From: Oceanobacillus timonensis
GTDB lineage: Bacteria > Bacillota > Bacilli > Bacillales > Amphibacillaceae
Length of the DNA: 64,000 nucleotides
Assembly (NCBI RefSeq): GCF_900166635.1
Contig: NZ_LT800497.1
Location: forward strand, 3,210,344-3,274,343
Direction of reading: 5' to 3'
Within the stretch, counting starts at the first letter, position 1, and every line of letters starts with the position of its first letter. This document shows positions 7,840-38,273 of the stretch, in pieces. The notes under the pieces are model-generated. The model worked only from the letters and a program-made list of their open reading frames with translations, ran no database searches and was not told the origin of the DNA. The translations under genes and the position numbers were made by a program.

Positions 7840-7986
7840 GCGATTCACCTCCCTCCTACTCATTGGGTTCACCCTGCACATTCCGACGTGCAAATGTTTT
7901 CAGCGGGGCGAGTAAGCGTAGCCCCAGCCCCTAGTCCCAGAACGTTGTGACGTCAGCTTGCCTTGAGGTTGGGAGTCCTATCGCCT
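7840..7986 (+). repeat. Dispersed structured repeat, copy C
   Basis: The element is bounded by GGCGAT (near 7840) and ATCGCC (near 7979-7984) and holds the family hairpin at 7905-7925: GGGGC, the loop GAGTAAGCGTA, then GCCCC. Its left part (TTCCGACGTGCAAATGTTTTC) matches copy A at 17754-17775 with few changes, and both continue to an ACGTTG/CTTGCC-like end. It lies in the probable 5' untranslated region of the K+ channel gene, ending about 28 bases before its start. Nothing else was seen in the 370-base gap except the terminator at 7649-7683. Confidence 0.7.
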
Positions 7987-8013
7987 AATCAAGATAAATT
8001 GGAGGGTTTCCCG

Positions 8014-9012
8014 ATGAATGATCGTTTTCTTAAACTGCTTTATCACCGTGTTCCTAATATTTTAAAACTCCTTTTGCTTGTCCTGATTACCATACCAATT
8101 TTCGGGTACCTTATCCATGTAATGGAACCCGAACGTTTTCCTACCGTTTTTGAAGGTGCGTGGTGGGCGCTTATCACCGGAGCAACTGTCGGTTACGGAG
8201 ACTATATCCCTGGAACAATACTGGGGAAGCTGCTTGCTGCCTTTTTAATTCTGAGCGGCGGCGGGTTAATCGCATTTTATATTGCCTCCTTATCTACGAC
8301 TGTCAGTAAACGGGAAAAGCAATCACAGGAAGGAAAACTGGCTTTTCACGGGGAAAATCATTATATATTTGTCGGTTTTAATGAACGGACCCGCCGGCTT
8401 GTTGACTTAATCATTCGTCATTATTCCAATAAAAAAATCGTTATTATCGACCGCAGTTTAGATAACTTATCCTATACAAAATTACCCGTGCATTACATCA
8501 AAGGAAATGCAACAGAGGATGACATTTTACATATGGCGAAGATAGAGGATGCAGCTTGCGTATTTGTTGCAGCGGATAATCAAAAAACAGATTATGAATC
8601 AGACACGCAGGCTATTCTGACTACCATCGCTATCCGTGGCAATAACCCGGACGTCCCTGTTGTTTCCGAGATTTTATCTGAAAAGCAAATCGATAATGCT
8701 GCCCGTGCCGGAGCTACTACGATTATTCGCTCCAATGATTTTATGAGCAGTCTGTTTTTTCATGAACTCGATCCGGAAGTGCAAGCAACCCCGTTTGAAG
8801 ATATTTATCATCTTTTGACACAACAAAAATTTATCCATCAGCCCCTTCCTGATTCACTAATTGGGAAAACTTATGTAGAGGCTGTTACCCCTTTTTTGGA
8901 AAAAGGATATATGGTGATTGGTATTCTTCGCGGGAAAGACTATATGCTGCATCCTAAAATAACATGTGTCCTAGAAGAAAAAGATATCGTTATCTGTATG
9001 GTGAATCGATAA
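8014..9012 (+). CDS. yugO: YugO-like K+ channel with RCK domain
   Basis: Two-transmembrane K+ channel of the MthK type, 332 residues: TM1 at about 16-37, pore helix and selectivity filter TVGYGD at 58-63, TM2 at about 70-92, then a cytosolic RCK domain beginning HYIFVGFNERTRRL with a Rossmann-like nucleotide/ligand site, and a C-terminal RCK_C part ending in KDIVICMVNR. In B. subtilis YugO carries K+ efflux, including biofilm electrical signalling (family knowledge). I start at 8014 because GGAGGG precedes it by 7 bases; the frame is open to 7963. It is followed by yugI and pgi as in B. subtilis. Confidence 0.92.
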   Translation: MNDRFLKLLYHRVPNILKLLLLVLITIPIFGYLIHVMEPERFPTVFEGAWWALITGATVGYGDYIPGTILGKLLAAFLILSGGGLIAFYIASLSTTVSKREKQSQEGKLAFHGENHYIFVGFNERTRRLVDLIIRHYSNKKIVIIDRSLDNLSYTKLPVHYIKGNATEDDILHMAKIEDAACVFVAADNQKTDYESDTQAILTTIAIRGNNPDVPVVSEILSEKQIDNAARAGATTIIRSNDFMSSLFFHELDPEVQATPFEDIYHLLTQQKFIHQPLPDSLIGKTYVEAVTPFLEKGYMVIGILRGKDYMLHPKITCVLEEKDIVICMVNR

Positions 9013-9234
9013 GCTGCCAGGTTTAAAGGATTAGAGTAGCTATTGTCTGCTATTTATGGTAAAATAGTGTATTGTGAAAAAAGCACATGTTCAAAAGATG
9101 CAGAAAAAGATTTTTAATGAATTTACTGGCTTCTTGCTGAGGTTAGTAAAGAGCTCCCAAAAGCTGCCTTTTCTTTTTCCATCCGCTTTGGATAACTCAT
9201 AACAGAATTGAAAAAGATATAGGAGATGTTTCAT

Positions 9235-9603
9235 ATGACTGCAAACGTAGAAAACGGCCAAGTAATAGAAGGAAAAGTAACTGGTATCCAGCCTTATGGT
9301 GCCTTTGTTGCAATTGATGGAGATACGCAAGGGTTAGTTCATATTTCTGAAATCACCCACGGTTATGTAAAAGATATTAACGATTATTTAAGTGTTGGTG
9401 ACACAGTAAATGTAAAAGTCATCCAGATTGATGAAGAAAAAGGAAAAATTTCTCTATCTATCCGCGCGACAGAAGAAGCGCCGGAAGAAACAGCAAAACA
9501 AGAATATGTCGCTAAAGGAAATGATTCCACTAATGATACTGGCGGTTTTAATATTCTTAAAGACAAACTGCAAGACTGGATTGACCAAACAAAAAATAAG
9601 TAA
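9235..9603 (+). CDS. yugI: YugI, S1-domain general stress protein 13
   Basis: A 122-residue protein with one S1 RNA-binding domain at about residues 5-76: GQVIEGKVTGIQPYGAFVAI, GLVHISEIT and VKVIQIDEEKGKISLSIRA. An acidic/polar tail follows. In B. subtilis the homologue is general stress protein 13 and associates with ribosomes. I start at 9235 because AGGAG at 9221-9225 is 9 bases away; the earlier ATG at 9226 overlaps that site. The gene sits between yugO and pgi, the B. subtilis order, and has its own terminator. Confidence 0.9.
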   Translation: MTANVENGQVIEGKVTGIQPYGAFVAIDGDTQGLVHISEITHGYVKDINDYLSVGDTVNVKVIQIDEEKGKISLSIRATEEAPEETAKQEYVAKGNDSTNDTGGFNILKDKLQDWIDQTKNK

Positions 9604-9611
9604 GTAAACAG

Positions 9612-9654
9612 ACATCCAAGTACCACATTCCAAATGTGTACTTGGATGTTTTTT
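9612..9654 (+). terminator. Intrinsic terminator after yugI
   Basis: ACATCCAAGTAC pairs with GTACTTGGATGT around an inner stem, followed by TTTTTT. Confidence 0.9.
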
Positions 9655-9837
9655 AATGTACCTTTTCCGCTTTTCCGTCCAACATATTCACTTTATTTCA
9701 TCACAATGTAACGTTAGTTATACCACATTTAAGTGCCTCTGTTCATGATGTGCTTCAGGTCTTCCTCCTTGATTTCATCATATTAATGGCTTAAAGTAGA
9801 AACAGATATGGAAGCAATCTTAGAGGAGGAAATATAA

Positions 9838-11184
9838 ATGACACATGTAACTTTTAAATATGATAAAGCACTTTCATTTTTTAATAAAGATGAAATGAAA
9901 AACTTGTCTCCATTTGTTTTACGTGCTCATCAGATGATTCATGAAAAAATTGGTGCAGGCAACGACTTTTTAGGTTGGGTGGACCTTCCGAAGAATTATG
10001 ACCAGGAAGAATATGCACGTATTAAAAAAAGTGCAGAAAAAATTAAAAATGATTCCGACATTCTCCTTGTTATTGGTATTGGCGGTTCTTACCTTGGAGC
10101 GAAAGCAGCGGTAGAAATGCTAAACCACTCCTTTCAAAACCTTCTTTCTTCAGAAGAAAGAAAAGCGCCTCAAATTATTTTTGCCGGCAATCATTTAAGT
10201 TCTACTTATATGAGTGAATTAACCGACATACTAAAAGATAAAGATTTCTCGATTAATGTTATTTCCAAAAGCGGGACAACTACAGAACCTGCCATTGCTT
10301 TCCGTTTCTTTAAAAAGCTGTTGGAAGAAAAATACGGAGAAGAAGAAGCGAAAAAACGTATCTACGCAACAACAGACCGGCAGCGCGGGGCTTTAAAAAC
10401 AACTGCTGACGAAGCTGGTTACGAAACATTTGTTATTCCTGATGATGTCGGTGGCCGTTATTCTGTCTTAACTGCAGTAGGTTTACTCCCGATTGCAGCA
10501 AGCAATATCGATATTGATGCTATCATGAAAGGTGCGCAGGCAGCGATGGAAGACCTGGCTGTACCTGATTTAAACAGAAATCCGGCTTATCAATACGCAA
10601 CTGTACGGAACGTTCTGTATCAAAAAGGAAAAGTAACGGAATTGCTTATTAATTATGAACCGTCCCTTCAATATTTCTCTGAATGGTGGAAACAGCTGTT
10701 TGGCGAAAGTGAAGGAAAAGACCAAAAAGGTATTTATCCGTCATCTGCAAACTTCACAACGGATTTACATTCGCTTGGACAATATATCCAGGAAGGAAGA
10801 AGAAATATTTTCGAAACCATCCTTCATGTAAACGAAGCGAAGAAAGACGTATCCGTGGAAGAAGAAGAAAATGATTTAGACGGTTTAAACTACCTTGCCG
10901 GCAAAACCATCCATGAAATTAATGATAAAGCATTCCAGGGGACATTATTAGCACATACAGATGGAGACGTTCCAAACTTGGTCCTCGAAGTTCCAAAGCT
11001 GGACGCTTATACATTCGGCTATTTAGTATACTTCTTTGAAAAAGCTTGTGCTGTCAGCGGCTATTTGCTCGGCGTTAATCCATTTGATCAACCCGGCGTA
11101 GAAGCATATAAGAAAAATATGTTTGCATTATTAGGCAAACCTGGTTTTGAAGCTGAAAAAGAAGAACTTGAAAAAAGATTATAA
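9838..11184 (+). CDS. pgi: Glucose-6-phosphate isomerase
   Basis: Interconverts glucose 6-phosphate and fructose 6-phosphate in glycolysis and gluconeogenesis. It has 448 residues, the short form used by Firmicutes. Family motifs are intact: [14 protein letters not shown] (about 77-90), [16 protein letters not shown] (phosphate loop, about 140-155), [17 protein letters not shown], and the C-terminal [16 protein letters not shown] with the catalytic lysine. GAGGAGGAAAT precedes the start. It is monocistronic and ends in a very long perfect hairpin. Confidence 0.97.
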
Positions 11185-11192
11185 AGGAAATC

Positions 11193-11248
11193 TGTGAAAA
11201 AGCTTCTTTTTATAGAGGGCGCCTTCTATAAAAAGAAGCTTTTTCACA
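11193..11248. terminator. 24-bp perfect terminator stem after pgi
   Basis: Arms 11193-11216 and 11225-11248 are perfect reverse complements with an 8-base loop. T-rich tracts lie inside the stem. The hairpin is far longer than usual and would work on both strands. Confidence 0.85.
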
Positions 11249-11327
11249 TGAAGCTATATATATAAATGGAGACATTCTAAAAACTTTTTTAAATTTCCGG
11301 TTTATTCTTTTTTACAGCGGGTATAAC

Positions 11328-11392
11328 TATAATTGTAAGGCTTTCTCGTATTCCCCCTGTAGGCAGAGCGTATTTACGCTTTGCTTTTTTTT
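11328..11392 (+). ncRNA. Possible small RNA: -10 box followed by an orphan terminator
   Basis: TATAAT (11328-11333) has only a weak -35 (TTCTTT). About 30 bases on, GCAGAGCG and CGCTTTGC (one G-U pair) form a hairpin followed by eight Ts (11363-11392). No reading frame lies between. The transcript would be about 50 nt. It could instead be a leftover attenuator, as patB has a separate -10 box at 11459-11464. Confidence 0.35.
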
Positions 11393-11458
11393 GTCCAAAA
11401 TAGGGAAACCTTTATATAAGTTTTAAGTTCCCTTTCTATCTTTCTAAAAAATATTTGT

Positions 11459-11464
11459 TATAAT
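11459..11464 (+). promoter_or_regulatory. Extended -10 box for patB
   Basis: TGTTATAAT has the TG-N-TATAAT extended form; no good -35 is visible. It would place the start of transcription near 11471. Confidence 0.45.
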
Positions 11465-11500
11465 AGAAAAATGAAACGATGTAAGGAGGCAAAGGAAAGA

Positions 11501-12688
11501 ATGAGTATTTTTGAAGAAGTACCTGACCGCAAACAAACCAAATCGATGAAGTGGGACATGCTGCAAATGAAATTCCAATCCGAAGATGTCCTGCCAATGT
11601 GGGTAGCTGATATGGATTTTAAAGCTCCCGAAGCAGTGAACCAGGCATTAATCAATCGTGCTGAGCACGGCATTTATGGATATACCGTCATTGATGAAGA
11701 TGTAACATCCTCGATTACAGATTGGGTTAAAAACCGCCATGGCTGGCATATTCAAGCTGATTGGCTGAATTATAGCCCAGGCGTGATTAATACGCTACAT
11801 ATGGCGTTACAGGCATTTACAGAACCAGGTGATAAAGTAATGATTCAAACACCTGTTTATACTCCTTTTTATAATATTATCAACGTGCTGGAGCGCGAAG
11901 TTGTTAAAAATCCGTTAATTCATCAAGATAATTATTACACCATTGATTTTGAGGATATGGAAAAGAAATTAGCTAGTGGTGTCAAAGCATTTATTTTATG
12001 CTCTCCGCATAATCCGGTAGGACGCGTCTGGACAGAAGAAGAATTACGTAAAATGGCAGAACTGTGTTTACAATATGATGCAATGATTTTCTCAGATGAA
12101 ATTCATGCTGATTTAGTCTTTAAAGACCATAAACACCTGCCAATCGCCAGCTTATCAGAAGAAATCGCTGATAAAACCATTACATGCATGGCGCCATCTA
12201 AAACATTTAATTTAGCTGGTTTACAGGCATCCTACGCTATAACACCAAATAAAGAAAATAAACAAGAATTAGAAAAAGCTTTTCGCCGCCAAGGTTTAAA
12301 TAATAACTTAAACGGGATGGCTGTTCCTGCAATGGAAGCTGCCTACCGTCACGGGGAACCTTGGTTAAATGAGCTATTAGATGTGGTGGAAGGTCATATC
12401 GCGTATATTAAGGAAATGTTCGCTACTTATGCACCGGAACTGAAAGTAACAAATTCAGAAGGAACGTACCTTGTCTGGGTCGATTGCTCTGCATTGCAGA
12501 TGGATAAAAAAGAATTACACAGATTTATGATTGACCAAGGACGCGTCGGCTTAAATTCCGGGCAGGATTACGGCGAAGAAGGAGACGCATTTATGCGAAT
12601 TAATGTTGCTTGTCCGCGGGCAACGATCGAAGAAGGCGTCAAGCGAATCATTCATGCAGTTGAAGCATGGAGAGAATCAAAAAATTAA
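11501..12688 (+). CDS. patB: PatB/MalY-type cystathionine beta-lyase
   Basis: Pyridoxal-phosphate enzyme of aminotransferase fold type I, MalY/PatB group, with C-S beta-lyase activity on cystathionine or cysteine conjugates (family knowledge). It has 395 residues. Visible motifs: VLPMWVADMDFKAP near the N-terminus, SPGVINTLHMALQAFT, FILCSPHNPVGRVWT (Asn contacts PLP), SDEIHADL (Asp contacts the PLP nitrogen), the Schiff-base lysine in APSKTFNLAGLQ, and a C-terminal arginine in AFMRINVACPR. I start at 11501, 11 bases after AAGGAGG, rather than at 11471, which is close to the likely transcription start. Confidence 0.9.
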   Translation: MSIFEEVPDRKQTKSMKWDMLQMKFQSEDVLPMWVADMDFKAPEAVNQALINRAEHGIYGYTVIDEDVTSSITDWVKNRHGWHIQADWLNYSPGVINTLHMALQAFTEPGDKVMIQTPVYTPFYNIINVLEREVVKNPLIHQDNYYTIDFEDMEKKLASGVKAFILCSPHNPVGRVWTEEELRKMAELCLQYDAMIFSDEIHADLVFKDHKHLPIASLSEEIADKTITCMAPSKTFNLAGLQASYAITPNKENKQELEKAFRRQGLNNNLNGMAVPAMEAAYRHGEPWLNELLDVVEGHIAYIKEMFATYAPELKVTNSEGTYLVWVDCSALQMDKKELHRFMIDQGRVGLNSGQDYGEEGDAFMRINVACPRATIEEGVKRIIHAVEAWRESKN

Positions 12689-12700
12689 TAAGAGACATGT

Positions 12701-12738
12701 AAAACAGCATCCTGCCATACGTAATGGGATGCTGTTTT
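12701..12738 (+). terminator. Intrinsic terminator after patB
   Basis: AAAACAGCATCC pairs with GGATGCTGTTTT. The A-run on the left allows use from the opposite strand by sodC too. Confidence 0.85.
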
Positions 12739-12797
12739 GTATGATGTGAACGTAAATAGCAATCTTTTCCGTTAATCGGTAAAATCACCAGCTATTT

Positions 12798-13406
12798 CTA
12801 TCCATTTTCTTCCGTTTCCTCTTTATCATTATTTTCTGTCGGATCCGTCGGGGCATCCTCCTCTTCCCCGCTCTGGGAACTTTTACTGATAACTCCACAA
12901 ACAATCCGTTCTCCAGAATCACCAGCTGGCTGACTCATTCCGTCATCTACGCCATCATGAATAATTAAAGAGGTTCCATTATCGGCAATTAAACTATTTT
13001 TCCCTTGCTTCAACGTCGCCTCTTCAATCATTAGTTCCTCTTGAACAAATCCATCTCCATTCGCTTCTATATTGGGAAGGTCACCGATATGTGGTCCATC
13101 CGTCCGTAAAAGGCCATGGTTTTTCCCATCCGGATTAAAATGATTCCCGCTGGAAGAGAAGTCAGGCTCTTCACATTTTCCATATTCATGAACATGTATC
13201 GCATGGAAACCGGGACTCAGCCCTTCCACTTCAACATTGACAGCTACACCACCATCTGTTTCATTCAATCTGGCTGTCCCTACCCGATCGCCATCTGTAT
13301 TGTACATCTCCACTGTTTCCGAGTTTTCATGCGGCAGCAGACATCCTGATAAAAGAACCAGTATCAATAATGATAGGATGAAGAACCTTTTATTCCATCT
13401 TCGCAT
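12798..13406 (-). CDS. Cu/Zn superoxide dismutase lipoprotein (YojM/SodC-like)
   Basis: Extracytoplasmic SOD anchored as a lipoprotein. A signal peptide ends in the lipobox LLSGC (Cys about 22). The SOD core shows GFHAIHVHEYGKC (two copper His), GNHFNPDGKNHG (bridging His and zinc His), HIGDLPNIEANGDG (zinc His and structural loop), SLIIHDGVDDG (last copper His) and ERIVCGVI, whose Cys pairs with KCEEP. Every metal ligand is present, unlike the reported B. subtilis YojM, which lacks one copper histidine. A 25-residue acidic tail (EEEDAPTD, EETEENG) follows the domain. 202 residues in all; monocistronic. Confidence 0.9.
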   Translation of the reverse strand: MRRWNKRFFILSLLILVLLSGCLLPHENSETVEMYNTDGDRVGTARLNETDGGVAVNVEVEGLSPGFHAIHVHEYGKCEEPDFSSSGNHFNPDGKNHGLLRTDGPHIGDLPNIEANGDGFVQEELMIEEATLKQGKNSLIADNGTSLIIHDGVDDGMSQPAGDSGERIVCGVISKSSQSGEEEDAPTDPTENNDKEETEENG

Positions 13407-13464
13407 CGATAAGCTCCTTTGCTTTTTTCTATAGTTTTAGCAAAGAACCCATTTTTAAACATAA

Positions 13465-13504
13465 AAATACCTCCCCCAAATTTTATTGATTGGAGGAGGT
13501 ATTT
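13465..13504 (-). terminator. Terminator of the 13483-13704 gene
   Basis: On the minus strand AAATACCTCC pairs with GGAGGTATTT and is followed by Ts. The hairpin overlaps the 3' end of the gene. Confidence 0.7.
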
Positions 13505-13704
13505 GTTACATGATTATTTTTCTTTTTCTGCTCTAAAACATCATGGTATTCCTGCTCAAAACGTTCTTGATCTTTCTTTGATTTTTTCATCATCCACCGC
13601 ATGACGAAAACAGCCAATACGATAAAAATAATTAATGTTATCACAGCAGGAATATATTCCATTTTATCTTCCGGAAAATAAAGGAATGGCATCATAAAAA
13701 ACAT
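13483..13704 (-). CDS. Small single-pass membrane protein, function unknown
   Basis: A 73-residue protein: a short extracytoplasmic N-terminus, one hydrophobic span (YIPAVITLIIFIVLAVFVMRW, about residues 17-37), then a highly charged helix (KKSKKDQERFEQEYHDVLEQKKK) in the cytoplasm. AAAGG sits 5 bases before the chosen ATG; a second ATG 14 codons later also has a fair site, so the first segment is uncertain. I do not recognise a family. It has its own terminator and stands between the sodC-like gene and ptsH. Confidence 0.6.
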   Translation of the reverse strand: MFFMMPFLYFPEDKMEYIPAVITLIIFIVLAVFVMRWMMKKSKKDQERFEQEYHDVLEQKKKNNHVTNTSSNQ

Positions 13705-13738
13705 TCACACCTTTCTGAAGACAATTTCAGAAAACCAT

Positions 13739-13782
13739 TTATTTATAAAAGCGTCCTGGAAACAGGACGCTTTTATAAATAA
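13739..13782. terminator. 20-bp perfect terminator after ptsH
   Basis: Arms 13739-13758 and 13763-13782 pair exactly around a GAAA loop, located 7 bases after the ptsH stop. Confidence 0.9.
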
Positions 13783-13789
13783 CCCAAGC

Positions 13790-14053
13790 TTATTCACCCA
13801 AATGTTCTTTGATAACGTCTGCAACTCCTTGCAGTGCTTCCTCTTCGTCGTTTCCATTTGCGCTTACTTCAATTTCAGCACCTTTTGGAATTCCTAAAGA
13901 CATAACGCCCATAATTGATTTAAGGTTAACGTTTTTGCCTTTGTAACTTACTTCAATTTCAGAATCAAATTGACCGGCTTTATTTACCAGCAATGTAGCT
14001 GGACGTGCATGTACTCCAGTTTCTGCAGTAATTTTAAATGTTTGTGCTTTCAT
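13790..14053 (-). CDS. ptsH: HPr phosphocarrier protein (stand-alone)
   Basis: HPr of the phosphotransferase system, 87 residues. It carries both regulatory sites: the catalytic histidine in ETGVHARPATLLV (His15 position) and the HPr-kinase serine in NLKSIMGVMSLGI (Ser46 position). So it is HPr rather than Crh, which lacks the histidine. It passes phosphate from enzyme I to EIIA domains, and as HPr-Ser-P is the co-repressor of CcpA. Start at 14053 after AAAGGA; upstream in-frame codons have no better site. No ptsI follows: the gene has its own promoter and a terminator 7 bases downstream. Whether a ptsHI operon exists elsewhere cannot be seen. Confidence 0.9.
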   Translation of the reverse strand: MKAQTFKITAETGVHARPATLLVNKAGQFDSEIEVSYKGKNVNLKSIMGVMSLGIPKGAEIEVSANGNDEEEALQGVADVIKEHLGE

Positions 14054-14132
14054 TATATACAACATCCTTTCCATTTTTGAAAATCTCTATTGTTTATGTA
14101 CTTATTAATTATTTCACATAAACCTACGTCCT

Positions 14133-14239: not shown

Positions 14240-14261
14240 ATCAATAATGGAGGTATGCGAG

Positions 14262-17625: not shown

Positions 17626-17987
17626 CTCAACTTTTGCCCTTTAAAAAGTAACTTCCTTTCCATCGAAACAGGAGTTGACCGTTTCTTCCATACATCTATT
17701 GATAAAGTTTAGAGGTAAAGTGTAAGGCAACCGCTACGGCGGACTGTTTTGCTTTCCGACGTACAAATATTTTCGGTGGGGTGAGTAAGCGCAACCCCAG
17801 GACGTTGCGACTTTAGTCTGCCTAGGGGCACGCTCTTCAGCTAACTTTTGCCAAGAAAAGCGCTTCGCAAAAGTGGATCTTCAGATGGTGCTGATCCCTC
17901 AGGAGTCAAAACGGCCCACCTCCGCTAGTAGGATATTCTATGCGGTTGTAATAGCTGAACAAATAAAAATTCGATCAGACAGAACCA
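17626..17987 (+). repeat. Dispersed structured repeat, copy A (long form)
   Basis: About 360 bases, nearly collinear with copy B at 29380-29676. It carries an outer inverted pair (GACTGTTTTG near 17742, CAAAACGGCC near 17907), a nested stem ACTTTTGC..GCAAAAGT, and AGGGGCAC..GTGC..CCCT arms. Between 17758 and about 17821 it has about 62 bases missing from copy B; this insert matches copy C and holds the hairpin GGGGT, loop GAGTAAGCGCA, ACCCC (17778-17798). It fills most of the 680-base gap between the NDH-2 gene and yumC; no gene was found there. Confidence 0.85.
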
Positions 17988-18158
17988 GTTTTTGTGGTGC
18001 ATGGTAAAATGTTCAGCAATCATTCCTTTATCTATAATGATGGAAAGAATATAAAAATACGTATCCTTACCTATCCTTCTAAAACGATATAATTCAAACC
18101 AAAACGAGTTTATGATACGATAGGAATGGTAAACGTTTAGACAGAAAAGAGGTATTAT

Positions 18159-19358: not shown

Positions 19359-19601
19359 CCGCACAGAAAAAGTCACGCAATTTCGCTCTTCATTCATTTT
19401 CATGTTTCAATTTCTTAATCTCTTCCACATCTAAGCCTGTTTTTTTAGCTATAAGTTCCGGAGAAAGAACGTCTAATAGGTCTTTGGCAATTTTAATTCT
19501 TTCTTTTTGCTGGGCACTTTCCACTGCTTCTTTTTTCTCTTCCTCAAAGGCTCTGCCTACTTTTGTCATTACTAACAGCTCCTTTACTTGCTTAGCATAT
19601 T
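19359..19601 (-). repeat. Tandem duplication, copy 1 (3' end of the Rpn-like gene)
   Basis: This stretch repeats 19602-19890 in the same orientation with few base changes and a deletion of the internal EKAV-coding units. The unit runs from CCGCAnAGAAAAGTCAC beyond the gene's stop to TAGCATATTC inside its coding region. Confidence 0.9.
19390..19569 (-). CDS. Stand-alone copy of the Rpn C-terminal segment (candidate antitoxin)
   Basis: A 59-residue frame, MTKVGRAFEEEKKEAVESAQ and onward, nearly identical to the last 71 residues of the gene at 19642-20535 but lacking the repeated EKAV block. It starts exactly at the methionine matching internal Met227 of that protein and has AAAGGAG upstream. 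An in-frame TGA lies just above, with no other start, so if made at all it is made from this ATG. It ends in the predicted helical motif DLLDVLSPELIAKKTGLDVEEIKKLK. In E. coli Rpn loci a C-terminal protein made from an internal start blocks the nuclease; that role here is inference. It could also be a decaying duplication. Confidence 0.55.
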   Translation of the reverse strand: MTKVGRAFEEEKKEAVESAQQKERIKIAKDLLDVLSPELIAKKTGLDVEEIKKLKHENE

Positions 19602-19890
19602 CCGCATAGAAAAGTCACCCAGATTCACCCAGATTCACCCTTCATTTATTTTCATGTTTCAATTTCTTAATCTCTTCCACATCTAAGCCTGTTTTTTTAG
19701 CTATAAGTTCCGGAGAAAGAACATCTAATAGGTCTTTGGCAATTTTAATTCTTTCTTTTTGTTGAGCACTCTGTTGCGCTTTTTCTACCGCTTTTTCTAC
19801 CGCTTTTTCCACTGCTTCTTTTTTCTCTTCCTCAAAGGCTCTGCCTACTTTTGTCATTTTTAACCACTCCTTTACTTGTTTAGCATATTC
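19602..19890 (-). repeat. Tandem duplication, copy 2 (parent 3' end)
   Basis: Parent unit of the direct repeat. It contains the internal start and the full EKAV-coding array, and is preceded by a small direct repeat of CCCAGATTCA. Confidence 0.9.
19642..19857 (-). CDS. Candidate internal product of the Rpn-like gene (gene within gene)
   Basis: In-frame ATG at 19857 (Met227 of the full protein) is preceded by AAAGGAGTGG at normal spacing, inside coding sequence. It would give a 71-residue protein identical to the Rpn C-terminus. The same start and ribosome site are kept in the duplicated stand-alone copy at 19390-19569. Translation is an inference. Confidence 0.45.
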   Translation of the reverse strand: MTKVGRAFEEEKKEAVEKAVEKAVEKAQQSAQQKERIKIAKDLLDVLSPELIAKKTGLDVEEIKKLKHENK

Positions 19891-20535
19891 TTCATCAATA
19901 AACTTATCCGTAGATGTCAGAATTCCTGCTATAGCTTGTACCTGCTGGTTATCATCTTCTATTTCTTTAGCTGTCTCAATAGAATCATGGATGACATCAT
20001 CACGACTTCTTTCACTTTTCATCAATGGAAGGATGCTGAGCTTGAATAAATCTTCTTGTGTTAATTGCTGCTCATTCCTTATTTTATTCTTTATGCTTTC
20101 TAATGTTTCATCTCCATTAAATTGGTATAATAAAACGGGATTGGAATGGATTTTTAAATCCCCTACACTTAATTCATTTTTTGTATTGGTAACTTCACTC
20201 GTATATACGACAACAATCCGTATCCTTTTTACCTGCTTTTCTTTTTGAAAATATCTTTGAGAGATTCTGTGCACATACCGTATATACTTTAGATGATTTT
20301 CCATATAATTATTATCACTTTCATACTCTAACATCAATACAGAATCATCTTCCAATTGAAAAACCGTATCAGAACGCTTTTCGTTCGCTGTAACCTCCGG
20401 AAATTCGTTTGGCAATAATCTTTTGATTCTTGGTAAATTTTTAACTCCTAAAACGTCCAGTGTCGAATTTTGATACAAATCACTTAAATATTTAAACAAA
20501 ATATCCTTGTTCTGATATGCTATACCTTCTGACAC
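19642..20535 (-). CDS. Rpn/PD-(D/E)XK family nuclease (transposase_31-like)
   Basis: A 297-residue protein of the recombination-promoting nuclease type. The active-site region KRSDTVFQLEDDSVLMLEYES matches the family pattern: Asp56, then Glu70 and Glu72, the D..ExE variant of PD-(D/E)XK. A helical middle and a C-terminal segment with 12-base repeats coding EKAV units (about 239-253) follow, then SPELIAKKTGLDVEEIKKLK, typical of Rpn C-termini. Codon 227 is an ATG with AGGAG 9 bases upstream, so a 71-residue internal product is plausible. E. coli Rpn proteins cut DNA and give phage defence (family knowledge). No transposon ends were seen. Confidence 0.75.
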   Translation of the reverse strand: MSEGIAYQNKDILFKYLSDLYQNSTLDVLGVKNLPRIKRLLPNEFPEVTANEKRSDTVFQLEDDSVLMLEYESDNNYMENHLKYIRYVHRISQRYFQKEKQVKRIRIVVVYTSEVTNTKNELSVGDLKIHSNPVLLYQFNGDETLESIKNKIRNEQQLTQEDLFKLSILPLMKSERSRDDVIHDSIETAKEIEDDNQQVQAIAGILTSTDKFIDEEYAKQVKEWLKMTKVGRAFEEEKKEAVEKAVEKAVEKAQQSAQQKERIKIAKDLLDVLSPELIAKKTGLDVEEIKKLKHENK

Positions 20536-25749: not shown

Positions 25750-25751
25750 GA

Positions 25752-29379: not shown

Positions 29380-29676
29380 CTCCACTTTCGCCCTTTAAAA
29401 AGAACTTCCTTTCTATAAGAACAAGGGTTGCTTGTTTCTTTCATACATCTGTTGACAAAGATTAGAAGGTTAAATGTAAGGCGACCGCTGCGGCGGACCG
29501 TTTTGCTTTCCTAGGGGCACGCTCTTCAGCTAACTTTTGCCAAGAAGAACACTTGGCAAAAGTGGATCTTCAGATGGTGCTAATCCCTCAGGAGTCAAAA
29601 CGGTCCGCCTCCGCTAGTAGGATATTCTATACGATTGAAACAGCTAAACAAATAAAAGTTAAATCAGACAGAACAA
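29380..29676 (+). repeat. Dispersed structured repeat, copy B (short form)
   Basis: About 300 bases matching copy A (17626-17987) from CCCTTTAAAAAG to AAATCAGACAGAAC, but lacking the 62-base hairpin insert. Its secondary structure is the best preserved: GGACCGTTTTG (near 29495) pairs with CAAAACGGTCC (near 29597), and inside it ACTTTTGCCAAG pairs exactly with CTTGGCAAAAGT. Arms AGGGGCAC and GTGC..CCCT lie between. It occupies the middle of the 750-base gap between the amidase and lipoprotein genes; the rest of the gap is A/T-rich with no gene seen. Confidence 0.85.
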
Positions 29677-30040
29677 AATATTTCAGTGGCAGGTAGCTTT
29701 AACAACTCTCAAAACCATCTGCTGTTTTTCTTAACCTTTACTTAAAAATGTTGTTTACTATACTGTTCGGTTCATCTGTAAATTAATCATTTATTTCGTT
29801 TTTATTTTTATTTGCCCGATTAATTCTTCCCTATTATTTTCCATACGAACAGGTGTAAAGAACTCTCTTCAAAAATCCTAGCCGTTATAATTTACATTTT
29901 TTAAAGACTTTAGAAATGTGGAATTTATCGACTCGTTATATTGGCATAATAGAAAGAAGCAAAAAGTTACGAAAAAATGAATTTGCCTAGGTTTATTTTC
30001 TTAGTTTTTTACGAAAACATATTCCCTTAATTACTGCTTT

Positions 30041-32135: not shown

Positions 32136-32167
32136 AACAACACTTATTTCATAAGGGGGTGATTCAA

Positions 32168-33130
32168 CTGGCAAGCATTCGCACGGTTATATGGCTTGTA
32201 TTCTGTTTTTTTCTCTTTTGTCAACCAGCCTCTTTCGTACATGCGGAATCAGAAAATCAAATATATGAAGACAGAATGGCACTATTTAAAAAAGTAGAGA
32301 GCCTCACACAAGTACCATGGTATTATTTTGCGGCAATGGATAATTACGAACGGAATACACTTCCTTCCTCAGAAGATGAGAAAGTCATCTCCATTCAATT
32401 TGATGAAACAGAGTGGTTTGGTTTGGGCAATGCAGCTCAATCTACCGAACAGGAGGTCATCCAGCAGTTTGGTGGAGTTGGTAAAGACGGAAACGATGAT
32501 AACCAGGCTGATCCCGATGATCCGGAAGATATCCTTTATACGATGGCCAACCATATATTAACATATGGTTTAGATAAGGATGACGTAAAAATTGCACTTT
32601 GGGAGCATTATAAACGTGACCTGACTGTACAAACAATCATGAATACAGCAAAAGTATTTGAACAATTTGGAGTTATTCATCTGACAGATCGGTCTTTTCC
32701 ATTGGATACGGGATATAATTACAGCTATCGCAGTACATGGGGAGACCGCCGCGGCTTTGGCGGATTACGGATTCATGAAGGTACAGATATTTTTGCTTCT
32801 TACGGCGTACCGGTTCATTCGACAACTTATGGTGTCGTGGAAATGATGGGTTGGAACTTATATGGAGGATGGCGTATTGGTATTCGTGATATTTATAATA
32901 TTTATCACTACTATGCGCATATGAGCGGTTATGAAGATGAAATAAAAGTAGGCCAAGTTGTAAAACCAGGAGACGTACTGGGCAGTGTCGGCTCTACCGG
33001 TTACGGCCCGCCAGGAACTTCCGGTAAATTCCCTCCCCACCTGCATTATGGAATGTATAAAGATAATGGATACAGTGAATTTTCATTTGATCCGTATCCT
33101 TATATTAAAAAATGGGAACGGATGAAGTAA
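32168..33130 (+). CDS. lytH: LytH/YunA, M23 peptidoglycan peptidase of the spore
   Basis: Secreted zinc metallopeptidase of family M23; B. subtilis LytH trims stem peptides in spore cortex. A signal peptide (IWLVFCFFLFCQPASFVHAES) is followed by about 160 residues without a known domain and the M23 domain at about 195-310, with zinc ligands in LRIHEGTDIFA (HxxxD), YHYYAHMSGY and PPHLHYG (HxH). The start is unusual: a GTG at 32159 lies inside AAGGGGGTGA, whereas the in-frame CTG at 32168 stands 8 bases after the five Gs, so I prefer CTG. The alternative gives 3 more residues. Confidence 0.85.
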   Translation: MASIRTVIWLVFCFFLFCQPASFVHAESENQIYEDRMALFKKVESLTQVPWYYFAAMDNYERNTLPSSEDEKVISIQFDETEWFGLGNAAQSTEQEVIQQFGGVGKDGNDDNQADPDDPEDILYTMANHILTYGLDKDDVKIALWEHYKRDLTVQTIMNTAKVFEQFGVIHLTDRSFPLDTGYNYSYRSTWGDRRGFGGLRIHEGTDIFASYGVPVHSTTYGVVEMMGWNLYGGWRIGIRDIYNIYHYYAHMSGYEDEIKVGQVVKPGDVLGSVGSTGYGPPGTSGKFPPHLHYGMYKDNGYSEFSFDPYPYIKKWERMK

Positions 33131-33154
33131 AACAAACATCCGCTTTTTATACAA

Positions 33155-33198
33155 AAAGGTGTGCATCCCAGCCAGATACAGGATGCACACCTTTTTCA
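33155..33198. terminator. Terminator after lytH
   Basis: AAAAAGGTGTGCATCC pairs exactly with GGATGCACACCTTTTT; works on both strands (also for metS). Confidence 0.9.
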
Positions 33199-33214
33199 AA
33201 TAGAACGTAAATAG

Positions 33215-33322
33215 TTACACTTTTTCTTTCCCTTTCCGAATGGCATTCCAGATACTAACCACTAAACCGCCCCATATAACAAGAATCCCGATAATCATGA
33301 CAATAATTGCTGAAACGCTCAT
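33215..33322 (-). CDS. metS: MetS-like small subunit of the NSS transporter
   Basis: A 35-residue single-span membrane protein: MSVSAIIVMIIGILVIWGG, then LVVSIWNAIRKGKEKV. It starts 12 bases after the NSS gene stop, and its ribosome site GGAGGAG lies in that gap. Size, one helix and basic C-terminus match the methionine/alanine importer small subunit MetS that works with MetP in Corynebacterium. It is too short for most gene finders. It is probably needed for activity of the partner carrier. Confidence 0.85.
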   Translation of the reverse strand: MSVSAIIVMIIGILVIWGGLVVSIWNAIRKGKEKV

Positions 33323-33334
33323 CTCTATCTCCTC

Positions 33335-34858
33335 CTAATTGTCGTTATAATCAGATAATGAATCATCTGATTTCCACTTTGTTAATGCCAGGATAATCCC
33401 AAGTACCAGCACACCGACTACAACTGCCCAGCCTGAATAGTTAATAAAAGCATCGGGATAATTTTCATAGTTACCGGATTCCGTATCAAATTCTCTTAAT
33501 AAATTCAGTTTAAAGAGTCCAAACATCATATAGCCCATAACAATTGGTGTAATAACGGCTATACTGATCGTCCACCAAGCTCCCAGACGGATATCAGAAA
33601 TCTCATTGGCATGATTTTTAAGGACATTGGTCCGGCGCAGAATCCAGGCAATCAACACGACTTCTACCAGGCCTATCATCGCTACTCCGAACTGATTAAT
33701 GAAATAATCGACATTATCTAAGAAATACATGCCGCCCCGGGAAGCATAGAGTAAGGAAACCAGTGCCGCGAGACCCCCGCCAATAAGAACTGCTTTGGCA
33801 CGCGTAATTTTAAATTTATCTACTAATGCAGCTACGTACGCCTCGGTAATAGACATCAAAGAGGTGATCCCTGCAAGCGTCAGCGATATAAAGAAAAGCG
33901 CGCCGAACAATCCATTAAAAGCCGGTAATTCATTGATAATTGCCGGAAAGACAACAAAGGCAAGCCCAACCCCTCCGGCTACTACTTCTTCAATACTTAC
34001 CCCAGCAGAGGAAGCCATGAATCCCAATATTCCAAACACACCAATTCCCGCTAACAATTCAAAACCGGAATTACCAAAACCAACAATAAATGCATTATTA
34101 GTAATATCTGATTTCTTAGGTAAATAACTGGAATAAGTAATCATAATAGCAAATGCAATCGATAAACTGAAGAAAATCTGGCCATAGGCAGCTATCCATA
34201 CTCCAGGTGACAGAATTTGACTGAAATCAGGCGTGAAGAATGCGTTCAGTCCATCCAGCGCCCCTGGTAACGTAACTGCCCTGATAACGATAATTAAAAA
34301 TAAGATCAGAAGTAAAGGAATAAAAATACGGTTTGCCATCTCGATTCCTTTTTTAACGCCTCGAAATAAAATACCCAGCACCAACACCCAAACAATAATC
34401 AACGGGATAAGTACACCAGGAACGAGTCCGCCGATTTGCCCGGGAATTTCTGCTAACTGCAAGTGCTCTCCAAATAAAAATGCTTCTGTATCTTCTCCCC
34501 AAGATTGATTGAAAGAGAAAATCGAATAAGATATTGCCCAGGCAATAATCACGGAATAATACGTTGAAATCACAAACGCAACAAGTACAGCCCACCACCC
34601 GATAAACTCTGTTTTCTTATTCATTCTCCGGAATGTTAAAGGTGCAGAACCGCGATACTTCTGCCCCATGGTAAACTCCATAATTAAAATGGGAATACCG
34701 GCAGTCAATAGCGCAAATAAATAAGGAATAAAAAATGCTCCACCGCCATTTTCATAAGCAACAGATGGAAAACGCCATATATTTCCTAAACCAACTGCTG
34801 AACCGACAGCCGCTAAAATAAACCCTGCTCTTGTCCCCCACTGCGAACGAGTTTCCAT
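33335..34858 (-). CDS. Neurotransmitter:sodium symporter (NSS) family amino-acid importer
   Basis: A 507-residue sodium-coupled carrier of the LeuT fold, 12 predicted helices. TM1 holds the signature GFILAAVGSAVGLGNIWRFPSVAYENGGGAF (about residues 12-42), the unwound region that binds substrate and sodium. It forms an operon with the MetS-like subunit, which in known pairs imports methionine and alanine; substrate here is inferred from that. AAAGGGGG precedes the start, and a near-consensus promoter lies at 35008-35035. Confidence 0.92.
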   Translation of the reverse strand: METRSQWGTRAGFILAAVGSAVGLGNIWRFPSVAYENGGGAFFIPYLFALLTAGIPILIMEFTMGQKYRGSAPLTFRRMNKKTEFIGWWAVLVAFVISTYYSVIIAWAISYSIFSFNQSWGEDTEAFLFGEHLQLAEIPGQIGGLVPGVLIPLIIVWVLVLGILFRGVKKGIEMANRIFIPLLLILFLIIVIRAVTLPGALDGLNAFFTPDFSQILSPGVWIAAYGQIFFSLSIAFAIMITYSSYLPKKSDITNNAFIVGFGNSGFELLAGIGVFGILGFMASSAGVSIEEVVAGGVGLAFVVFPAIINELPAFNGLFGALFFISLTLAGITSLMSITEAYVAALVDKFKITRAKAVLIGGGLAALVSLLYASRGGMYFLDNVDYFINQFGVAMIGLVEVVLIAWILRRTNVLKNHANEISDIRLGAWWTISIAVITPIVMGYMMFGLFKLNLLREFDTESGNYENYPDAFINYSGWAVVVGVLVLGIILALTKWKSDDSLSDYNDN

Positions 34859-35007
34859 TCATCATACCCCCTTTTAATAAATAGCAATAGCATGAAAGCG
34901 CGTTACAAAATGGATTCAAAAATGATCCAAAAATAAAATTTGAATTTTTCGAATACATATTTTAAAAATAATAGAAAAAATCATTACTTTCAGACTATTT
35001 TAATTGT

Positions 35008-35035
35008 ATTATATCCTTTCTAGTCGTTTTGTCAA
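35008..35035 (-). promoter_or_regulatory. Sigma-A promoter for the NSS-metS operon
   Basis: Minus-strand TTGACA (35030-35035), 16-base spacer, TATAAT (35008-35013): both boxes are exact consensus. Confidence 0.8.
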
Positions 35036-35084
35036 ATGTTATTATTTGGATTTGTCCTATCTTACTGCGTTTGTTTTATGACAA

Positions 35085-35116
35085 AAGCTTGGAATACTAA
35101 AATGTATTCCAAGCTT
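35085..35116 (-). terminator. Terminator after nhaC
   Basis: AAGCTTGGAATAC pairs exactly with GTATTCCAAGCTT; TTTTG follows on the minus strand. Confidence 0.85.
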
Positions 35117-35120
35117 CCTA

Positions 35121-36683
35121 TTAAGATGCCTTCTTTTTTCCTCTTATGAATAATAAATGTGTCAGCCAGACAATTCCTGCTAACAGAAGAATGGTCACAG
35201 CTAATGCAATCCAAACAGAATGAGTGAATCCAATAACACAAAAACCGATAAAAGCTGTAAAAGCTGCTATTAAAGCATACGGCAGCTGTGTAAGAACATG
35301 GTCAATATGATGTGCCCCTGCCCCCGTTGCAGATAAAACAGTCGTATCAGAAATCGGCGTACAATGATCCCCAAATACTGCTCCAGCAAGTACAGCTGCT
35401 AATGCAGGCAACAATAACGTCATATCTGTATTTGCCATGATTTCTACAGCAATCGGCAGCATGATACCGAACGTTCCCCAAGAAGATCCTGTTGCTAAAG
35501 CCATCAACCCTGCAATCAGGAATAAAATCGCCGGAAGAAAATCAGATGATACGGATGCGTTATTAACTACACCAGCTAAATAACTTCCTGTTTCCAATTC
35601 CCCGATAATCGCACCAATCATCCAGGCAAGTATTAAAATGTTAATAGCCGGAATCATCGTCTTAAAGCCCTCTATAAAAATCTGCTTTAATCTTGAACGC
35701 GGATGGCTTTGCTGCATATGAAAAATAACAGAAGTCAGCACTGCTGCAATCCCGCCGATAATTAAGGAAAGGTTGACATTTGTATTTGCAAAAGCATCTA
35801 TAATAGATGCACTGCCTTCTGTCTCCATGATACCTGTTCCAACCATTGCGATAACTGTAACTACAAACAGTACGATAATCGGAACAATCAGATGAAAGAT
35901 TTTCCCCTCTTTATGCGGGTCAAATACATCACTTAAATCTCCCGAAACCTGGTTTCTTTTTGGGTCCAGCAGGCCTCCATCTTCTTTTGCTCTTTTTTCG
36001 TGTGTATACATGGAACCAATATCAAAATGGAAATAGGCGACAATAAACACAAGTATAATCGAAGCAATCGCATAAAAATTAAGTGGAATCATTTGTATAA
36101 ATGCTTCCATCGGCTGTACATCTGTAATCCCATTGGCTACAAATAAACCGCCCAAAAGACCGATAATATATGCTCCCCAGCTTGATATTGGTGCGATTAC
36201 CGTAACCGGCGCCGAACTGGAATCAATATAGTAAGCCAGTTTCGCACGGGATATTTTTTGCCGATCGGTAACCGGTCTGGCAATCTGCCCAACTGCTAAG
36301 CTATTAAAATAGTCATCAATAAAAATAACCAATCCAGTAATTACAGTCATTATTTCCGCGCCAGTACGTGTTTTCACCCGTCTCAGCATCCAATCTCCAA
36401 ATGCTTTTGCTCCTCCTGAAGCTTGTAAAAATGCCGTAAGTACTCCTAAGAAAAGAAGGAAAAGAATTAATAGTATATTTCCAATTTCAAGTGCGCCATC
36501 CACATAAAAAATCGTGTAAAATACAGTCCATATTTCTTTTATTGTTCCCCATATATGAAAATCATTTAATAATAATGCGCCTACCACAATTCCTGTACCA
36601 ATCGAAATAAGCACTTTTCTTGTTACGATCACTAATATCAACATGACAATTGCAGGTAACAGCGACCAATATGTAGCTTCCAT
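35121..36683 (-). CDS. NhaC-family antiporter under lysine riboswitch control
   Basis: A 520-residue membrane carrier of the NhaC family, with about 11-12 helices. Conserved blocks: FIDDYFNSLAVGQIARPVTDR (about 118-138), SSSAPVTVIAPISSWGAYIIGLL, ATGSSWGTFGIMLPIAVEI and AGAVFGDHCTPISDTTVLSATGAGAHHIDHVLTQLPYAL. Annotated family members exchange Na+ and H+ or organic acids. The lysine riboswitch upstream (36967-37120) indicates that this one carries lysine, like the L-box-controlled NhaC-type transporters (LysW) predicted in other Firmicutes. The 5' untranslated region is long, about 190 bases beyond the riboswitch terminator. Confidence 0.88.
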   Translation of the reverse strand: MEATYWSLLPAIVMLILVIVTRKVLISIGTGIVVGALLLNDFHIWGTIKEIWTVFYTIFYVDGALEIGNILLILFLLFLGVLTAFLQASGGAKAFGDWMLRRVKTRTGAEIMTVITGLVIFIDDYFNSLAVGQIARPVTDRQKISRAKLAYYIDSSSAPVTVIAPISSWGAYIIGLLGGLFVANGITDVQPMEAFIQMIPLNFYAIASIILVFIVAYFHFDIGSMYTHEKRAKEDGGLLDPKRNQVSGDLSDVFDPHKEGKIFHLIVPIIVLFVVTVIAMVGTGIMETEGSASIIDAFANTNVNLSLIIGGIAAVLTSVIFHMQQSHPRSRLKQIFIEGFKTMIPAINILILAWMIGAIIGELETGSYLAGVVNNASVSSDFLPAILFLIAGLMALATGSSWGTFGIMLPIAVEIMANTDMTLLLPALAAVLAGAVFGDHCTPISDTTVLSATGAGAHHIDHVLTQLPYALIAAFTAFIGFCVIGFTHSVWIALAVTILLLAGIVWLTHLLFIRGKKKAS

Positions 36684-36873
36684 GTTAAAACCCCCGTCTA
36701 TTTATTTCCTGTATCTTAAAAACCATGTATAAGGCGGATAATACAACACGAAATCATGACTATTATCTCTTTTCCTCCCTACACATGCGCAACTGATTCG
36801 AAAAAAGAAGGTAGACAGGGATCTTCGCATCTCTGCACTGTCCGTAATATCATACAAATTCCCCTGTAAACGC

Positions 36874-36910
36874 AAAAAAACAATGATAGAAAATAACCTA
36901 CCATTGTTTT
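36874..36910 (-). terminator. Terminator of the lysine riboswitch expression platform
   Basis: On the minus strand AAAACAATGGTAG pairs with CTATCATTGTTTT (one mismatch), then more Ts. It lies between the aptamer and nhaC. Confidence 0.8.
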
Positions 36911-36966
36911 AACAACTCACGTTATCCTCCATTTCGATCAATAGTTCTCCATGTAAAAAATACATA

Positions 36967-37120
36967 CATGACAGCATGTAACTTTTTCAGTAACATGCCA
37001 GCAGTATAAAGCATGACCCCTTTATACGCTTCGGCAAACCAACCTTTTCCCAGCTATCATCGTTGTCATTCTCCTGCCGGGTACTCATCTGATTTGCACC
37101 TCTACCTCACCGATCTGTTA
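36967..37120 (-). ncRNA. Lysine riboswitch (L-box)
   Basis: Minus-strand blocks fit the L-box in order: GGTAGAGGTGCAAATCAG, GATGAGTA, GGAGAATG, AGCTGGGAAAAGG, TTTGCCGAAGCG, a stem TATAAAGGGGTCATGCTTTATA, CTGCTGGCATG, a stem-loop GTTACTGAAAAAGTTAC, and a closing GCTGTCATG. The order and spacing resemble the B. subtilis lysC leader closely. Lysine binding should favour the terminator at 36874-36910. Confidence 0.93.
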
Positions 37121-37166
37121 AGGTTTTATTCAAATGTAAATGTTAATAGCTTCTTCACTAATTTGT

Positions 37167-37195
37167 ACTATACTACATATTTATTCGTTCTGCAA
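37167..37195 (-). promoter_or_regulatory. Promoter for the lysine riboswitch-nhaC transcript
   Basis: Minus-strand TTGCAG (37190-37195, inside the end of yunB), 17-base spacer, TATAGT (37167-37172), about 47 bases before the aptamer. Confidence 0.6.
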
Positions 37196-37972
37196 ATCAT
37201 CTTTAGGGACAGCAATATCTGGCGTGTTTCCGTCTCCTCCGTAAAAATCAGGGACTTTTCCCATAATGGCTCCTCCATCTAAATATAATTCGGTATGTAC
37301 CGTTCTTACTTCTGATGTAAATGGCACAATAATTTGTACATCAGCTTCTACATTTATATATAAAGACACCCAGGCCCCATTAATGCCAAACTCTTCTTCC
37401 TCACTGACAACGTTCGTTCGGACAGCCCCGATTACTTCCATATTAATCGGTATTCTAGGACCTAAATTAGCCAGTACAGAATTTCCGGTTACTTGCCCCA
37501 ATGGAATCTCAATCAATGTTGGATCGATTTCAGCTTTTCCTTCTGCACCACCCTCGTATTCATATGGTTCTTGCAGATTGTGATCAAATTCAAGCTGCTC
37601 CCCCCGGTTCACATGAGCAAAAAACTCCTCCACCCGATCGGTAGCAACCCGATTAATTTCACTGATTATTGCCGGGTCCCTGTTATATGTTACTAAATTG
37701 CCTTCATTATCATATGTGATGTTAAGAATATCCTCAAATCCATATTCCTCTACATAATATACAGCTGTATTAATCGCTCTTGTAGCAAATTCATCTGCTC
37801 TTCTCTCCGCAATATCGATCACAATTGGTTCAATCTTTACGTTAATTATATAAAAACTGAAACCAACTGCAGCAAAAAATAAAATAAAGGTCAGCACTAA
37901 AACAGAGCGCCGGGATGGAGGTATTCTTCTTTTCCTGCTTTTTCGATAGCGGTATCGCTTTTTAAATTTCAA
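37181..37972 (-). CDS. yunB: YunB, sporulation protein
   Basis: A 263-residue sporulation protein of the YunB family (sigma-E regulon in B. subtilis; mutants make defective spores). A very basic N-terminus (KFKKRYRYRKSRKRRIPPSRR) precedes one membrane span (SVLVLTFILFFAAVGFSFYI) and an extracytoplasmic domain with ERRADEFATRAINTAV and VTGNSVLANLGPRIPINMEVIG. I start at the TTG at 37972, 8 bases after GGGGG. The ATG at 37993 lies before that site and has none of its own. The yunEDC operon lies upstream on the same strand, separated by repeat copy D. Confidence 0.88.
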   Translation of the reverse strand: MKFKKRYRYRKSRKRRIPPSRRSVLVLTFILFFAAVGFSFYIINVKIEPIVIDIAERRADEFATRAINTAVYYVEEYGFEDILNITYDNEGNLVTYNRDPAIISEINRVATDRVEEFFAHVNRGEQLEFDHNLQEPYEYEGGAEGKAEIDPTLIEIPLGQVTGNSVLANLGPRIPINMEVIGAVRTNVVSEEEEFGINGAWVSLYINVEADVQIIVPFTSEVRTVHTELYLDGGAIMGKVPDFYGGDGNTPDIAVPKDDLQNE

Positions 37973-38141
37973 CGCAACTACCCCCTTCTCCATAATTTAT
38001 GCAATGATTGAAGGGGATTAGAACTGAAGTCTTTTCACTCTTATTTCAATTGCTATATGATACGCTTACAGACGGGTATCATATACTTCCATAAAAATTT
38101 ACATAAAGAAAACTTGGCATTCGTTAAAGGGAGCCTTAAAA

Positions 38142-38273
38142 GCGTGTTTTGCTTTCTTAGAATCCCTTATGCTCTTGAGTGCAAGCCTTTCGACGAATGC
38201 CTAAGTTGGGACTGGGACTGCGCTTACTCGTCCCACCGGAGACATTTGCGGTTACTCGCCCCATCAAAACCGC
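38142..38273 (-). repeat. Dispersed structured repeat, copy D (opposite orientation)
   Basis: Read on the minus strand, GCGGTTTTG (38265-38273) pairs with CAAAAC..CGC (38142-38151). Inside are two copies of the family loop: GGGGCGAGTAACCGC near 38250-38263, and the hairpin GGGAC, GAGTAAGCGCA, GTCCC at 38214-38234. The GTTTTG..CAAAAC ends match copies A and B; the hairpin matches copies A and C. It lies in the 440-base gap between yunB and yunC. Nothing else was seen there apart from the yunC terminator. Confidence 0.7.

Follow-up and report, generated by a model that had tools for sequence, protein, structure and literature searches.

Three short hairpins that lie scattered over a 64,000-nt stretch of the Oceanobacillus timonensis genome (contig NZ_LT800497.1, forward-strand positions 3,210,344 to 3,274,343; hereafter the window) belong to a family that appears to form one layer among minimal mobile elements nested in each other. 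Each hairpin lies within a unit of 34-35 nt, approximately AATGTTTTCGRTGGGRYGAGTAANCGCARYCCCA. This unit is probably a mobile DNA hairpin of very small size that is non-autonomous. It has constant ends and a short target, occurs in host repeats that also exist in empty form, keeps a fixed orientation in a given host, nests in itself and swings widely in copy number. An initial annotation had interpreted the hairpins as a repeat family with an invariant loop under selection for RNA structure, an interpretation that is partly supported by the results below.

The repeat unit and its target

The dispersed nature of the family was borne out, since this genome and those of related bacteria hold many additional copies. 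With up to one mismatch the loop occurs seven times in the window against 1.12 expected, a number reached by none of 100 shuffles. Exact loop matches number 47 in the 4.49-Mb genome, compared with four for a reversed-motif control. In 46 distinct copies with flanks the conserved part exceeds the hairpin and reads approximately AATGTTTTCGRTGGGRYGAGTAAGCGCARYCCCA, mostly with CA just before it. The unit starts with a 5' arm of about 11 nt, continues with a hairpin of 6 bp and an 11-nt loop, and ends in CA. The sixth, T-A pair closes the stem in 30 of the 33 copies of alignment A2; these were picked by eye, with at least four stem pairs, from 84 copies (39 from this genome and 45 from named genomes), so the stem counts are biased.

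Searches used a 36-position covariance model comprising CA and the 34-nt unit, and scored at most 150, 118, 43 or 23 candidates per genome, making high copy numbers lower bounds. The search of the genome itself, which the initial annotation had proposed, gave further copies: at least 84 matches at E ≤0.01 and at least 95 at E ≤1. The unit was found in 23 of 28 genomes of the same genus (0 to at least 120 matches per genome), in 3 of 6 other genomes of the same family and in none of 24 from other families of the order. A wider family sample gave the unit in 79 of 159 genomes and 33 of 46 genera, and an order-wide draw in 7 of 299 genomes, two of which lie outside the family (G189 with 22 matches and G280 with one). 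Named carriers of the 21-nt hairpin pattern are Virgibacillus, Oceanobacillus, Pseudogracilibacillus, Paucisalibacillus and Amphibacillus; the pattern also occurs in one viral contig and in two Paenibacillus contigs that have no 5' arm, all of which were kept out of A2. Plasmids and phages queried with one 36-nt copy at E 0.01 gave no match. No paper describing the 34-nt unit was present among the literature matches listed, some of which were the top of longer lists.

The target was derived from 150 distinct units among 155 hits scoring above 40 (189 scored above 22); these are copies, many of which share host families, and do not count as independent events. The base at -1 is A in 96% of these units and the base at +1 is G in 80%; at -2, C is found in 70% and A in 28%, the latter because the AAAGC variant shifts by one base. 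The target is CA↓G (the arrow marks the insertion point), with no duplication longer than the shared CA. The CA that closes the unit also closes the target, which makes duplication of 2 bp indistinguishable from duplication-free insertion. The hosts are the tips of Bacillaceae-1 hairpins (on the opposite strand), other repeats and the unit's own copies, and the orientation of the unit is fixed relative to a given host repeat. Self-nesting takes place between the loop and the 3' stem and leads to nested units with stacked GTCCCA ends. Five units with a 34-bp period form a tandem array at locus L094 (G011:C1:3532349-3532520). Where the unit is followed by GGACG or GGATG, 30 of 43 insertion points are predicted to lie in a hairpin loop, versus 12% of control positions.

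The CA at both junctions, the insertions in or beside palindromes of several hosts, and the nesting and 34-bp tandem array would also suit enzyme-free template switching, in which a replication fork held up at a palindrome would copy 34-35 nt of a different unit via CA microhomology and then return. A two-base microhomology is scant for ends of such uniformity, however, and three unrelated hosts, as well as relatives, show the identical length. We regard this explanation as unlikely.

Empty, filled and nested host sites

In three host repeats, the copies that carry an insertion are longer than the empty ones by 34, 35, 67 or 69 nt. Repeat H2, CTCCTGCGGGAAAGCGCA↓GTGGGAAGACC, measures 29 nt when empty (L121, own genome), 63 nt with one unit in L033 and L037 (+34), 64 nt in L005 (+35, the AAAGC variant), and 98 nt with a unit inside a unit (+69) in L027 and in L187 of genome G018. 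These six are all the copies that one regular expression matched in the fetched loci; other copies with altered arms exist. The Bacillaceae-1 repeat, TGACTTCTGTGTTGTCCACA↓GGACGTGGACGT, is empty in L092 and longer by 34 nt in L093 and L096. At the third site of the window (site c), the host has empty counterparts in L117 and L118, both from the same genome, as well as in L134 and L135; the window copy is 67 nt longer, read as 33 + 34 nt of nested units. L188 carries 35 nt at the identical point of this host, which is partial there.

The three hairpins reported in the initial annotation lie where they were placed, with the stems that were given. Together with the units and hosts around them they are:

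7893..7926, plus strand: 34-nt unit, copy a
7905..7925, plus strand: hairpin of copy a, stem GGGGC/GCCCC
7883..7962, plus strand: site a insertion, 78 nt net, read from the alignment as a collapsed antisense Bacillaceae-1 with unit; no Rfam match
17766..17799, plus strand: 34-nt unit, copy b
17778..17798, plus strand: hairpin of copy b, stem GGGGT/ACCCC
17756..17822, plus strand: site b insertion in H1 (65 nt net), interpreted as a unit-carrying, collapsed antisense Bacillaceae-1; no Rfam match
17633..18006, plus strand: host repeat H1, filled (repeat families D1, D5, D9)
29386..29695, plus strand: host repeat H1, empty (GCTTT-CCTAGGGG)
38213..38246, minus strand: 34-nt unit, copy c, inner
38214..38234, minus strand: hairpin of copy c, stem GGGAC/GTCCC
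38247..38273, minus strand: 5' part of the outer, older unit, which the inner unit entered after ACCGCA
38207..38212, minus strand: displaced 3' stem of the outer unit, GTCCCA
38103..38358, minus strand: host repeat of site c, with empty counterparts at G000:C3:2946408-2946596 and 3350105-3350296 of the same genome

Site c is a unit inside a unit inside a repeat. Sites a and b look like a unit within a collapsed Bacillaceae-1 element within a larger repeat. For site b, the H1 copy at 29386-29695 lacks the insertion of 65 nt and the copy at 17633-18006 carries it; the 78 nt at site a are missing in all five empty host copies compared (L222-L226). A series of H1 loci leads from the empty form to antisense Bacillaceae-1 with one unit (L010, 37.8 bits; L034, 33.0 bits; gathering score 35), to Bacillaceae-1 with two units (L174, 26.9 bits; L171, 23.6 bits; both below gathering) and to a collapsed one-unit form in the window, L022 and L184, in which the Rfam match is gone. 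This series explains the layering at sites a and b. The collapsed form may have arisen by recombination between the two units of a Bacillaceae-1 element. Orthologous loci were matched with 1.5-kb flanks in 19 (site c) and 11 (site a) of the 27 other genus genomes, with a few gene pairs spaced more widely than the flank, and the unit was found in 0 of the 19 and 0 of the 11.

The Bacillaceae-1 family (RF01690) is one of the hosts. RF01690 matches interrupted by the unit lie opposite to the GAG-motif strand in 12 of 12 cases, eight of them below the gathering score (L010, L034, L088, L090, L091, L093, L095, L119, L122, L124, L171 and L174), and filled copies still match the RF01690 model around the 34-nt insert. 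The numbers of units and of Bacillaceae-1 elements increase together over the 28 genomes (Spearman 0.77, uncorrected for kinship). As to a known RNA family, the unit itself gave no Rfam match in the window (whole window at the gathering threshold; positions 7000-40000 at an E-value threshold), yet RF01690, read from the opposite strand, is among its hosts. On the layered reading Bacillaceae-1 would be mobile too, inserting at CC with its own end CC.

Further observations concern the same elements. A unit-interrupted Bacillaceae-1 match lies between 16S and 23S rRNA genes, on the rRNA strand (L119, G000:C3:3187700-3188400). A repeat of 346-347 bp occurs at three places (L122, L123 and L124) with terminal inverted repeats around GTTCAAAAAGTC; by alignment it holds two Bacillaceae-1-like elements, of which the first has a unit in each loop and the other is empty. 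Rfam, run on L122 and L124 only, gave two matches in each, one above the gathering score. In the GAG orientation the Bacillaceae-1 loops read CAGGA(C/T)G, which resembles the CsrB repeat. A role of CsrA was set aside: 5 of 17 extracted copies have CACGA and no GGA in a loop, and Rfam calls the other strand.

Genes flanking the three hairpins encode, by Pfam, an ion channel with TrkA_N, two Pyr_redox_2 enzymes, YunB and a DUF1805 protein. Elsewhere in the window, Rfam detected a lysine riboswitch (36934-37112) and an FMN riboswitch (5696-5818), both on the minus strand, and a sub-threshold match to the Bacillus sRNA ncr1241 at 11334-11391 (41.4 bits, gathering 60). Long direct repeats of 189 and 105 nt with 85-87% identity lie at 19373-19895.

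Covariation of the hairpin

Covariation was evaluated by a shuffle test on paralogous copies, which is distinct from R-scape. The cleanest set is that collected from this genome by the loop only; the wider sets, for which a structure model or a pattern containing the stem was used in part, are biased. In the 46 distinct contexts of the loop-only set, 190 of 230 pairs are standard, against a mean of 181.7 and a maximum of 189 in 5000 shuffles, so the compensating stem changes described in the initial annotation are genuine. The 30 contexts whose outer stem consists of GGG and CCC have 60 inner pairs, 58 of which are standard (shuffle mean 50.8, maximum 57). Eleven of the 46 contexts show at most three of five pairs, and in several of these another unit or sequence comes after the loop. 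The wider set from this genome had 93 of 96 standard pairs (48 of 72 copies used; shuffle mean 81.0, maximum 89) and that from relatives 107 of 110 (55 of 64 copies; mean 94.2, maximum 103). The set from named genomes, with 69 of 70 (35 of 38 copies; mean 67.5), was reached by 234 of 5000 shuffles and is not clear. In the wider family the loop is not invariant, position 7 being G, T or C.

At the fourth pair G.T outnumbers A.C by 11:1, 7:2 and 7:1 across the three wider sets, in which copies are related and events not independent. This excess points to folding of the GAG strand, whether in RNA or in single-stranded DNA. The Bacillaceae-1 stems weakly lean the same way: there are six A.C-type pairs and one G.T in the Rfam orientation (16 distinct copies), and eight G.T versus three A.C in the GAG orientation (17 copies, largely from the same loci).

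The compensatory pairs and the excess of G.T in the stem would be expected of a structured RNA, a hairpin selected as a cis-regulatory or processing signal that spread through its usefulness; part of the family moreover lies within a catalogued RNA family, once in a 16S-23S spacer (L119). The genomic arrangement disagrees with such a role. Rough open reading frame (ORF) calls around 27 units of this genome placed 13 in tandem, 6 in divergent and 2 in convergent gaps and 6 inside ORFs; these ORFs, 91-139 aa long and located on the other strand, are probably spurious. Among the 13 tandem-gene gaps orientation shows no clear bias, with eight units opposite to the genes and five in the same direction. 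Copy number ranges from 0 to at least 120 inside one genus, the unit sits at a fixed point in other repeats with exact empty sites, and Bacillaceae-1 is annotated on the opposite strand. We therefore judge an RNA function very unlikely to account for the family. The covariation is real, yet it is equally expected of a hairpin that is recognized as single-stranded DNA. Selection on RNA structure, as claimed initially, is not established, since the filled and empty hosts, the 34-35-nt length, the CA↓G target and the self-nesting point to mobile DNA.

Possible movement of the unit and related repeats

In the mechanism that we propose for a mobile DNA hairpin, the unit, which enters just 3' of a CA dinucleotide, would move as single-stranded hairpin DNA; a trans-acting enzyme would cut it beside CA at either end. 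The model for such single-strand movement is the logic of IS200/IS605 elements and repetitive extragenic palindromes (REPs). Covariation would keep the hairpin recognizable to the enzyme.

Several observations weigh against this proposal. The Y1_Tnp domain (PF01797) had no match in the own genome. It is present in 21 of the 28 genus genomes; all Y1 matches correlate with unit number weakly and without significance (Spearman 0.35, p 0.07, uncorrected for kinship), and intact Y1 genes, counted by hand as open frames of at least 130 aa without stops, show no trend (-0.19). The unit is absent from all 19 fetched Y1 loci, which include 21 of the 60 Y1 matches. IS110 (rho -0.14) and reverse transcriptase (rho 0.02), likewise uncorrected for kinship, do not track unit number. 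In three site classes other than the Bacillaceae-1 type, the insertion point is in a predicted loop in 27%, 14% and 29% of cases versus 23%, 16% and 21% of controls. The DNA folds of single units are only mildly better than those of shuffles (z -1.5 to -1.7), and that of the filled Bacillaceae-1 stretch is no better (z 0.04); the nested site-c stretch has a z of -1.3 and the empty Bacillaceae-1 stretch one of -3.1. Locus L136 is 29 nt longer than the empty site c host and has lost host bases, which does not fit a clean insertion. Finally, movement is deduced from comparisons between species and paralogues, not at the strain level.

Y1, IS110 and reverse-transcriptase genes were thus rejected as mobilizers, none clearly tracking copy number; among the 11 genomes with at least 40 units, six are without IS110 and four without reverse transcriptase. 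General targeting of hairpin tips is unsupported as well, the three other site classes being near control rates. Rfam found no match on 18 of the 19 fetched Y1 loci. The enzyme may belong to another family, may have been lost in many carriers, or may not be needed.

A unit could also, once transcribed, be inserted into a loop of a different structured RNA and then reverse transcribed. The preference for Bacillaceae-1-type hairpin tips and the 10 reverse-transcriptase matches in the own genome are consistent with such RNA-mediated insertion, but G015, G016, G019 and G025, each with at least 40 units, are without a reverse-transcriptase match, and all five unit-free genus genomes have one. We consider this route highly improbable. 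Two reverse-transcriptase matches lie about 0.5 kb from unit-bearing H2-type repeats (L026 and L030; G000:C3:1965808-1966503 and 2651945-2652640). They are perhaps group II introns, as if introns target these palindromes too.

For the mobile DNA hairpin, the closest kind of known element appears to be the cyanobacterial SDR elements together with the REPs. SDR4 and SDR5 of cyanobacteria, described by Elhai and co-workers in 2008, are reportedly very small mobile repeats, comparable in their size, hairpin form and lack of a known transposase. Like SDR elements, the unit measures tens of nucleotides and has sharp ends (+34 or +35 nt in three hosts). It is likewise dispersed and inserts precisely at a short fixed site inside another repeat, CA↓G in 150 distinct units; passages citing the cyanobacterial work have SDR5 inserted into HIP1 (PMC4390886, PMC2884548). 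It differs in occurring in another phylum, in its CA↓G target as opposed to HIP1, in nesting within itself with stacked 3' stems and in having an Rfam RNA family as one host; the two are likened by description.

REPs and REPINs, as described in PMC3733652 and PMC3116915, are similarly palindromic high-copy repeats of 20-40 bp with compensating stem changes. The REP classes described in PMC3733652 have an unpaired GTAG or CGTC tag at one end; the unit consensus has no GTAG tag, and its only CGTC lies on the other strand, where it spans the border between loop and stem. Unlike the RAYT-REP system, the own genome has no Y1 match, and no unit is present at the 19 fetched Y1 loci. The unit nests directly in its own copies. 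Classical miniature inverted-repeat transposable elements differ from the unit, which has a single hairpin at one end, no terminal inverted repeats and no duplication past the shared CA. Mitochondrial hairpin repeats (GC clusters and double hairpins), described in PMC2800124 as small and potentially mobile, are likewise small hairpins but organellar; this too is a likeness by description. Bacillaceae-1 RNA, marked as certainly RNA in Table 1 of PMC2864571, is a host, the unit sitting in its terminal loop on the opposite strand and in unrelated hosts too.

It is possible, though doubtful, that the unit and its main host, a mobile Bacillaceae-1 perhaps annotated on the wrong strand in Rfam, together represent layered minimal single-hairpin transposons of Bacillota that are moved by an enzyme of a novel kind. 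If the mobile reading is true, a self-nesting hairpin of 34 nt would be among the smallest mobile elements. With ends, target, empty sites, nesting order and zero-copy relatives all defined, it would offer a base-exact system for studying how elements too small for coding or terminal repeats move. The results also suggest that an Rfam small RNA family may be a mobile repeat and landing pad in these bacteria, which matters for RNA annotation.

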